Positions 1 to 47,658 of a stretch of DNA of 47,658 nt are shown one piece after another (within the stretch, counting starts at the first letter, position 1; every line of letters begins with the position of its first letter). A model generated the notes under the pieces. That model was given only the letters and a program-made list of their open reading frames with translations. It made no database searches and had not been told where the DNA came from. Source of the stretch: Bacteroidota bacterium. Its GTDB lineage: Bacteria; Bacteroidota; Ignavibacteria; Kapaibacteriales; UBA2268. The stretch lies in the NCBI GenBank assembly GCA_024278075.1, contig JAJRTW010000054.1:1-47658 (forward strand), given 5' to 3'. Position numbers and translations under genes: made by a program.

Positions 1-281
1 CTCAAAAAGTATCAACTAATCATAATTAAGGTAGTTATAAAAGATATCCAACAACAAAGTGCAAGGCATACAATTTATTATGCTCGAAAACCTTGCAGAA
101 AGTATGACAACCCCCTGCTCGCCTGGCTCACTTCCCACTTTTTTAAGGGGGAATCTAAGTTATTGTAATTTCAACTATTTCCCCCTTAATAAAGGGGGAT
201 TTAGGGGGTTGTTTTTTCCTTAATATTGCAAGCGTACTCATAATTATATCTCAGTCAACTTTTTGAGTTTAACCTAATTAT
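1..281. repeat. MITE-like repeat element, right-hand part of copy A
   Basis: Bases 1-162 are repeated at 47497-47658 with 5 substitutions and no indels. The last 24 bases here (258-281) are the exact reverse complement of 47483-47506, which is the left edge of the other copy. Combining the copies gives an element of about 295 bp with perfect 24-bp terminal inverted repeats and no room for a transposase. Inside it are a hairpin (gcaagg 61-66 / ccttgc 91-96) and a larger inverted repeat (acaaccccct 107-116 / agggggttgt 203-212) around two C-rich/G-rich blocks. The first 14 bases of this copy lie outside the window. It is most likely a non-autonomous mobile element. Confidence 0.75.
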
Positions 282-302
282 CAATTATACTTATTATGCA
301 TA

Positions 303-357
303 GGACTGTTATGCATCAGGACTGTTATGCATCAGGACTGTTATGCATCAGGACTGG
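303..357. repeat. 16-bp tandem repeat next to the MITE-like element
   Basis: The unit ggactgttatgcatca occurs at 303-318, 319-334 and 335-350, then starts again at 351-357. A partial unit (ttatgcatagg) precedes it. Each unit contains the palindrome ATGCAT. It lies between the mobile-element-like repeat and the 3' end of the neighbouring lipoprotein gene. Its function is unknown; slippage-generated repeats are common at such edges. Confidence 0.8.
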
Positions 358-403
358 AAGTCTGGACATTAGGATAAACATAGTGCAACAGAGCGATTTT
401 TTC

Positions 404-15487: not shown

Positions 15488-18400
15488 TCATTTCCCGAAC
15501 TTCATCATACCGCTCAATCTATATGTTATCTTGTACAGAGCCGGCACTACGAACAGAGTAAGGAAAGTGGAAGCTATCAGCCCGCCGATAATCGTCCAGC
15601 CCATCGGGGCCCACATCTTGCCGCCCAGCACTGTTAGCGGCAGCAGGCCGCCTACGGTTGTGGCAGTTGTAAGGACGATAGGCATAAACCGTGTCTCGCC
15701 GGCTTCTTTGATGGCCTCGATAACATCTTTGCCGCCCTGCCTTAATTTGTTGATGTAGTCCACCAGAATTATGGAGTTGTTCACCACAATTCCCACCAGC
15801 GAGGTCAGGCCCACAAATGCCATAAACGAGAAAGTAAGCCCCATAATAAATAAGGCGAATATTGATCCGATGATTGCAAGCGGGATAGCGGAAAATACGA
15901 TGAATGGCTGGATGTACGATTTAAATTGCAGTACCAATACGGCGAATATTCCTATCATAGCGATTAATATTGCCTGCAGCATACCGCCGAATGATTCCTC
16001 GCGGCTTTCCTGCTCGCCCTTCACCTGGAATTGATAGCCTTCCGGCCATTGGTATTCCTCCAGCTGGCCAACCACCTTGGATGTGGCTTCCAGTACGGAT
16101 TGCCCCGAAATAACATCGGCTGTTATAGATACATTTCGTATTAGGTTGAAATGGTTAATGGATAATGGCGAAGCGACGAATTCAACCCTGGCGATTTGCC
16201 GGAGCGGTATGTTGGCGCCCGAACTTGATTGTATGTAAACCTTGCCAAAATCGTCAACCGACACCTTCTTCTTTGACGGCAGCCGGACTACAATATCATA
16301 ATTCTTACCGTCGCTGTCGCGATATCTCGACACCGGAACGCCGGCAAGATTGGCACGGACGGTCTTGTCAATATCAATCAGAGACACGCCGAGCATAGAT
16401 GCCTTATACCTGTTTATATCGATATGAAGGTCGGTCTTCGTGGTGCTTAGCGGATTGTTTATATTGATAGTACCCGAAACGGATTCAATCATATTCTCTA
16501 CATCTTTCGACAGCTTTTTGAGCATATCCAGGTCATCGCCAATAACTTTTATGGCAATCGGAGCTTCGATTGGCGGGCCTTGCTCAAGTTCTTTCACATC
16601 AATCTTCACACCAGGAATATCGGAGAATCGCTTCCTGAGTTCCGAATATAATTCCTCCATCGAATCCATATATTCTTCCTTAACTTCAACCAATAATTGT
16701 GCATAGCCCGAGTTGTAATTCTTCGGAAGCACGTTGTAATACACCTTCGGATTGCCATGGCCCACGTTTGTAGCAAAACGTTTAACTTCTTCCCTCGACG
16801 CTAAATACTCTTCAACCATCGAGGCATATTTATCGGTTTTATCGAGATTGGTCCCGGCCGGGGCATTGATTTCAATAAAGAACTGCGGCTTTTCGGCTTT
16901 TGGGAAGAAGCTAAGCCCAATGAAGAAAGAAGCAAACACCACACTTCCGACAAGTGAGCACAGGGCTATGGCGATTGTTGTAAAACTATGTTTGACAGCT
17001 TTGCCAAGCATTCTTCTGTAAACAGTTGAAACGAATCTATCGAAATACCGCCTGATGGGATTCTTCTCAATTGCCTCCGGGCCTGAGTCCCGAGTTTGAA
17101 TCATTTTTGGCTTTTTGAGAAATTTGCTGAGCAGAAACGGCGTAAGGGATAGCGACAAAATCAATGACGCCACCAGTGAATAAACAACAGTTAGCGGCAG
17201 GCTGCGTATGAATTGCCCCACATCCTCGCCTATCATAATCATAGGGACGAAGGCCAAAACCGTAGTAACCGTCGAGCTTACCACAGCCCACCCGATTTGG
17301 CTGGTTCCGAGATACGCCGCTTCTCTGCGAGAATAGCCCATTTTCATAAATCTCGTAATATTCTCAGTCACAACGATAGCGTTGTCCACCAACAGGCCTA
17401 AGGCGATTACCAGCCCGGCAATCGTCATCTGCTGGAGGCCAAATCCGCTATTTGCTATTGCAAAGATGCCGATGAATAGCGAAATCGGAATTGCTATCAT
17501 AACGATTATCGATGCCCGAAACCCAACAGCCAGCAATACAACCAACCCAACAAGGAACAACCCCTGAAGCAGATTGGAGAAGAATACAGACAGCCTGCTG
17601 TCGACGCTTTCCGACTGGTCGAATACGTAATCCATTGCGATATGCGGCGGTATCGTTGAAGCAAATTCCGCCAGCTTTGCCTTTAGATTCTCCATCACAG
17701 TGAAGATATTAGTTCCGTTCTTTTGAGTAATGGAAACCCATATCGCCTTCCGGCCATCTAACCTTGCCTTATATTTAATATCTTCATAACCCGGATACAC
17801 ATCAGCTACATCTTTCAAAAAAACCGGAATTCCACCCATCGAATGTATAATCGTATTCTTAATATCGTCTATATCATCATAATTTCCGCTGGTGGTGACA
17901 TTGAACTTCTTGCCTCCCATGTCAATACTGCCTCCGGGAATATTTGCCCCCGATTCGCTTAATGCCTTAAATATCTGCCCGATACCTATGTTGTTCTGAG
18001 ACATCCGGCCGGGGTTGATCGAAACTTTAATCTCCTGCTCGGGACAGGCATGAATCTCTACTTTCCGAATTCCCGATACTTTTTCAATCTCTTTTTTCAG
18101 CCCTTTGGCTGTTTTCTCCAATGCTTTATACGAAGCGGAGTCTGAAATCAAGGCAAGCTGGAGGATGCTCACATCTCCCACTTCCCATTTGGCAATATCG
18201 AGTTTTATTATTTCATCAGGCAGAATCGATTGAACGCCGTTTACTTTTTGCGCCACCTCGCGATACTTTTCGTCGGAGTCGGCACTGAATAAATACTTAA
18301 TATTGATAACGGCAAGGCCATCGCCGGCATAGGATGCTATTTCCTTAATATCTTCGAGTTCGTTAACAGCTTCCTCGATTGGCTCGACCACCAATTCTTC

Positions 18401-47482: not shown

Positions 47483-47658
47483 ATAATTAGGTTAAACTCA
47501 AAAAGTATCAACTAATCATAATTAAGGTAGTTATAAAAGGCATTCAACAACAAAGTGCAAGGCATACAATTTATTATGCTCGAAAACCTTGCAGAAAGTA
47601 TGACAACCCCCTGCTCGCCTGGCTCACTTCCCCCTTTTTTAAGGGGGAATCTAAATTA
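47483..47658. repeat. MITE-like repeat element, left-hand part of copy B
   Basis: The copy starts with the 24-bp terminal inverted repeat (47483-47506), whose exact reverse complement closes copy A at 258-281. Then it runs into 47497-47658, 97% identical to 1-162. It is cut by the window end at about 176 of 295 bp, upstream of lpxD. Differences from copy A rule out an exact assembly overlap. Confidence 0.75.

Follow-up and report, generated by a model that had tools for sequence, protein, structure and literature searches.

The 47,658 nucleotides of DNA analysed here (the window) begin and end within two copies of a short, gene-less repeat. This repeat is very probably a non-autonomous MITE that arose by internal deletion of an ISMae6-like IS of the IS5 family and was moved in trans by the DDE transposase of that family. 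It is present in well over 100 copies and helps to account for the 275-piece assembly of its Bacteroidota genome. A preliminary description of the window had proposed a short non-autonomous mobile element; our data support that reading, with corrections to the terminal inverted repeat (TIR), to the size and to the location of the autonomous relative.

Two element copies at the ends of one contig

The window is the entire contig C7 of a Bacteroidota genome (3.74 Mb, 275 contigs), and its proteins, which include a T9SS sorting domain and TonB-dependent receptors, are in line with a Bacteroidota host. Searching the genome with the element placed both contig ends inside one repeat, as had been suspected from the window alone; the repeat comprises the first 281 bases (copy A side) and the last 176 bases (copy B side). 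Copy A (1-274, plus strand; best match of the genome search) has lost the first 7 element bases, the left tip, at the contig edge, and complete copies elsewhere in the genome reach 94% identity to it. Its right TIR (258-274) reads GGTTAAACTCAAAAAGT on the minus strand and is followed by the target-site duplication TAATTA (275-280), placed according to the TAnnTA position defined from 44 copies. Inside copy A lie a subterminal inverted repeat TGCAAGG...CCTTGCA (60-97, plus strand), which the alignment of IS and MITE left ends identified as common to the leader of the autonomous IS, and a central inverted repeat (109-210; AACCCCCT ... AGGGGGTT) with CCCCCTT..AAGGGGG hairpins. Copy B (47490-47658, plus strand) has lost its right part at the contig edge. 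It is preceded by the left duplication TAATTA (47484-47489), positioned from the same copy set, starts with the left TIR GGTTAAACTCAAAAAGT (47490-47506, plus strand; comparison of ends) and carries the subterminal inverted repeat at 47556-47593 (plus strand; same left-end alignment). Adjoining copy A, a short tandem repeat with a unit of about 18 bp (GGACTGTTATGCATCA) occupies window positions 295-360.

With both contig ends in the same repeat, one might suspect an assembly artefact in which a circular contig was opened inside a single copy, leaving half of it at each end. Direct comparison bore out the earlier count of 162 bp common to copies A and B with 5 changes, and because 5 of 162 bases differ, the repeats must be two copies rather than halves of one. 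Dozens of other contigs also break in the same repeat, and we regard an artefact as practically negligible. Assembly breakage at a multicopy repeat had indeed been predicted: at least 59 contig ends fall within the element (tallied from the matches listed and the contig sizes, mainly for contigs 1-192 and counting exact ends only), which makes it a main cause of the fragmentation of this genome.

Copy number and genomic distribution

A query with the 293-bp element listed 40 scored places in its own genome at 77-100% identity, and a query with a second subfamily (left tip GATTGCC) listed 40, some of them in common with the first list, so that both queries together give about 80 scored places in overlapping lists. 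The end pattern TANNTAGRNTNNMCTCAAAAAGT has 140 exact matches and, with up to 2 mismatches allowed, 257, versus 0 and 2 for a reversed control, far more than chance would give. Of the internal hairpin unit TCCCCCTTnnnnAAGGGGGA the genome contains 262 occurrences, often two to an element. From the 257 matching ends and the 262 hairpin units it is safe to state that the genome holds well over 100 copies, a figure that cannot be made exact, as elements split by contig edges may count twice. The expectation of many copies with the same ends, rather than only the two in the window, was thus borne out.

Across 148 further genomes belonging to the same family, order or class there was no exact match; viral contigs gave no match to a TIR pattern, and plasmids none to the element. 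Joining the sequences on either side of 47 complete copies gave a long open frame across the junction in only 4, and most copies are therefore probably intergenic.

Element ends and target-site duplication

The TIR proper is 17 bp long and imperfect, with the core CTCAAAAAGT, and sits inside a 6-bp target duplication TAnnTA. The left TIR is mostly GGTTAAACTCAAAAAGT or GATTGCCCTCAAAAAGT (left tip GGTTAAA or GATTGCC) and the right TIR is GGGTT(T/C)(C/A)CTCAAAAAGT, so in complete copies the right tip differs from the left one. In contrast to the complete copies examined, copy A carries a left-type tip on its right end. This explains why a perfect 24-bp TIR had been proposed. Window positions 258-281 and 47483-47506 are exact reverse complements, as described, but the 24-base stretch consists of a chance base (47483), the palindromic duplication TAATTA and the 17-base TIR, and the match pairs two different copies, not two ends of one element. 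The inverted ends themselves hold, and complete copies are bounded by the 17-bp TIRs; the length of 24 bp and the perfection do not. Likewise, the element is short and bounded by inverted repeats, but instead of about 295 bp complete copies measure about 281 bp without duplications, those of the second subfamily about 265 bp, and most complete copies span 240-329 bp with the duplications counted in.

Short target-site duplications, which had been named as a check, are evident. Identical flanking 6-mers were found in 24 of 44 complete copies, compared with a mean of 8.5 and a maximum of 19 in 2000 shuffles of the pairing; at all other lengths from 2 to 10 flank identity in these 44 copies did not exceed expectation. 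In about half of the complete copies the flanking 6-mers are no longer identical. Nearly every copy has TAnnTA as its 6-mer; one has TAATCA on both sides. Because the outer bases are nearly fixed, a 6-bp duplication and a duplication of the inner 4 bases look the same in most copies; the TAATCA copy and a plasmid IS with TACGTTA (see below) favour duplication of the full length. The TAATCA copy, a rare departure from TAnnTA, lies at L136:2157-2402 (G000:C167), with a decayed transposase N-terminus a few hundred bp away. At L020 (G000:C146:16870-17198) and L224:530-1040 (G000:C78) MITE copies or ends stand in tandem, as if one had inserted at the TAATTA of another.

IS elements with the same ends

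The exact right TIR next to TAnnTA was sought in 84,980 species genomes and found in Bacteroidales CSMAG_450 (6 places), two Neomarinimicrobiota MAGs and one Trichodesmium MAG. In Neomarinimicrobiota B83T3L11 the ends flank two ORFs of one broken (frameshifted) transposase (L123:601-2275), the first of which reaches 331 bits with the NCBIfam model NF033578 ("IS5 family transposase"; cut-off 275). The TIR of this IS and of CSMAG_450, GGGTTTCCTCAAAAAGT, is identical to the usual right TIR of the MITE. The flanks of the B83T3L11 IS are of the TAnnTA type, but the two 6-mers differ (TAAATA, TACTTA). In CSMAG_450 the TIR lies at six contig edges, where it precedes codons for TSESWIGVIIFVLNVI, a match to the C-terminus of the NF033578 transposase, and a left end lies at five further edges. 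The closest transposases at class level come from two genomes (L189, L190), in which the stretch examined contained no ends of the MITE type.

A transposase gene with the same ends thus exists, if frameshifted and in another phylum. The preliminary description had placed an autonomous relative elsewhere in the same genome; its existence is borne out by B83T3L11 and the CSMAG_450 contig edges, its location is not, for the own genome yielded only remnants and no intact autonomous copy. Screening that genome with Pfam DDE_Tnp_1 gave two matches, on contigs C189 and C166. The C189 transposase was rejected as the source of the element, being different, broken and without the element's ends. Contig C166 encodes a 338-aa part of an NF033578-type transposase, which is 5'-truncated, so that the N-terminal part is gone, and retains the presumed catalytic D, D and E; the right end of this remnant reads TAAATAGAGTCTCCTCAGAAAC. 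Contig C167 holds a decayed N-terminal transposase fragment. Multicopy ISs often drop out of bins, as the CSMAG_450 edges suggest; an intact IS may therefore be missing from the bin, and its absence is weak evidence. Abutting the truncated C166 remnant are three CRISPR-like 36-bp direct repeats with 70-71 bp spacing (GTCGCAGTGACTATTGGTAAGCATTGACACTCCTAC; L127:3965-4141, G000:C166, about 17464-17640).

Plasmid relatives of the C166 transposase (42-48% identity) include ISMae6 and ISAcma17. All eight intact ones have inverted ends (GGGYTTGCTGAAAAAG or similar) beside TA-flanked duplications, which are TAnnTA in seven, two of these with a repeat readable as up to 8 bp, and the 7-bp TACGTTA in the eighth. 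With TAnnTA duplicated in 7 of 8 plasmid ISs, the MITE obeys the target rule of the ISMae6-like IS5 branch. Mobilisation in trans into TAnnTA by an ISMae6-like IS5 transposase is well supported by this anatomy: an IS5-family transposase would bind both inverted ends through their core, mobilise the MITE in trans and cut palindromic TAnnTA sites with a 6-bp stagger, so that its insertion there leaves 6-bp duplications.

Interior and origin of the element

No transposase is encoded in the element, as stated from the outset; at about 280 bp at most it is too short to hold one. A complete copy folds with z = -6.2 relative to shuffles, and no Rfam family matches. Such strong hairpins, the 262 hairpin units and the 43 of 47 complete copies that interrupt no long open frame could also describe a REP or hairpin-type repeat kept as transcription terminators or attenuators and spread without a DDE transposase. 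The copies, however, end in TIRs that an IS carries in identical form, and 6-bp target duplications flank them. REP elements are not known to have either, and we consider this scenario very improbable.

Over approximately its first 110 bp, the left end of the MITE can be aligned with the untranslated IS leader. Nine sequences have GTGCAAGG and TGCA without variation; these are arms of the inverted repeat TGCAAGG/CCTTGCA, which lies shortly upstream of the IS start codon. Scored against dinucleotide shuffles, copy B exceeds expectation with z = 5.3 for the B83T3L11 leader (L123) and z = 9.9 for the L168 leader, and a MITE copy on contig C26 with z = 4.8 and 3.7, respectively. Outside the TIR the similarity is clear for L168 and L123 and weak for L162; for the CSMAG_450 leader, the same comparison with shuffles gives nothing significant apart from the GTGCAAGG motif. 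Because its left end resembles an IS leader, including TGCAAGG/CCTTGCA, the MITE is probably an internally deleted IS. The left part would then be a former untranslated leader that retained its inverted repeat, and the transposase gene would have been lost, with a C-rich/G-rich hairpin region in its place.

None of the ISs examined has anything corresponding to the central palindrome, and on the right side no homology between MITE and ISs is visible inside the TIR. Both observations would suit a composite origin, in which IS ends captured an unrelated palindromic repeat and the same transposase moves the product, with no internal deletion of a single IS. This is a distinctly less likely scenario, as it leaves aside the alignment of the left approximately 110 bp with IS leaders, the inverted repeat just before the start codon included. 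We tentatively raise the possibility that TGCAAGG/CCTTGCA functions in cis in this IS5 branch, either as a regulatory hairpin or as a site within the element to which the transposase binds. Such a role, if true, would explain both its invariance across two phyla and its retention in gene-less MITEs.

Comparison with known elements

In our judgement the element is a new high-copy MITE family of ordinary IS5 type (ISMae6-like). ISMae6, ISAcma17 and their relatives (IS5 family, NCBIfam NF033578 transpos_IS5_1) share with it the type of ends, the adjacent TAnnTA and the 6-bp duplication, but each of them is a complete IS, about 1.7 kb long and encoding a transposase of some 500 aa. IS5-related MITEs are already known in Bacteroidota: MITE239, MITE464/PgRS, MITE700 and BrickBuilt of Porphyromonas gingivalis have TIRs matching ISPg1, ISPg3, ISPg4 and ISPg9 (PMC4596501). 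They resemble the present family in being short, in their Bacteroidota host and in TIRs that match IS5-family elements, but differ in TIR sequence (GAGACCTTCGCA, ACGTCAGTTCGA), in their variable duplications and in copy number (about 10-20 each versus >100 here; PMC4596501). Bacterial MITEs with >100 copies have likewise been reported: the Correia element, Chunjie and QMITE measure about 190-400 bp, have TIRs and short direct repeats, and occur in tens to >100 copies (reviewed in PMC10969869). Size, TIRs, direct repeats and copy range are thus similar, while hosts and ends differ. Among the open-licence papers searched, none was found to describe the present family. With it, the IS5-type MITEs gain a family whose target rule (TAnnTA, 6-bp duplication) is clear and common to named cyanobacterial ISs; it also ties one IS5 transposase branch to an expansion in a Bacteroidota genome and, apparently, to another in Trichodesmium.

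The Trichodesmium genome (sp. MAG_R03, G152; e.g. L126, L180-L188) has about 196 TAnnTAGGG(C/T)TTGCTGAAAAAGT ends and 22 matches to NF033578, most of them decayed; the same IS branch and short derivatives have apparently expanded there in parallel.
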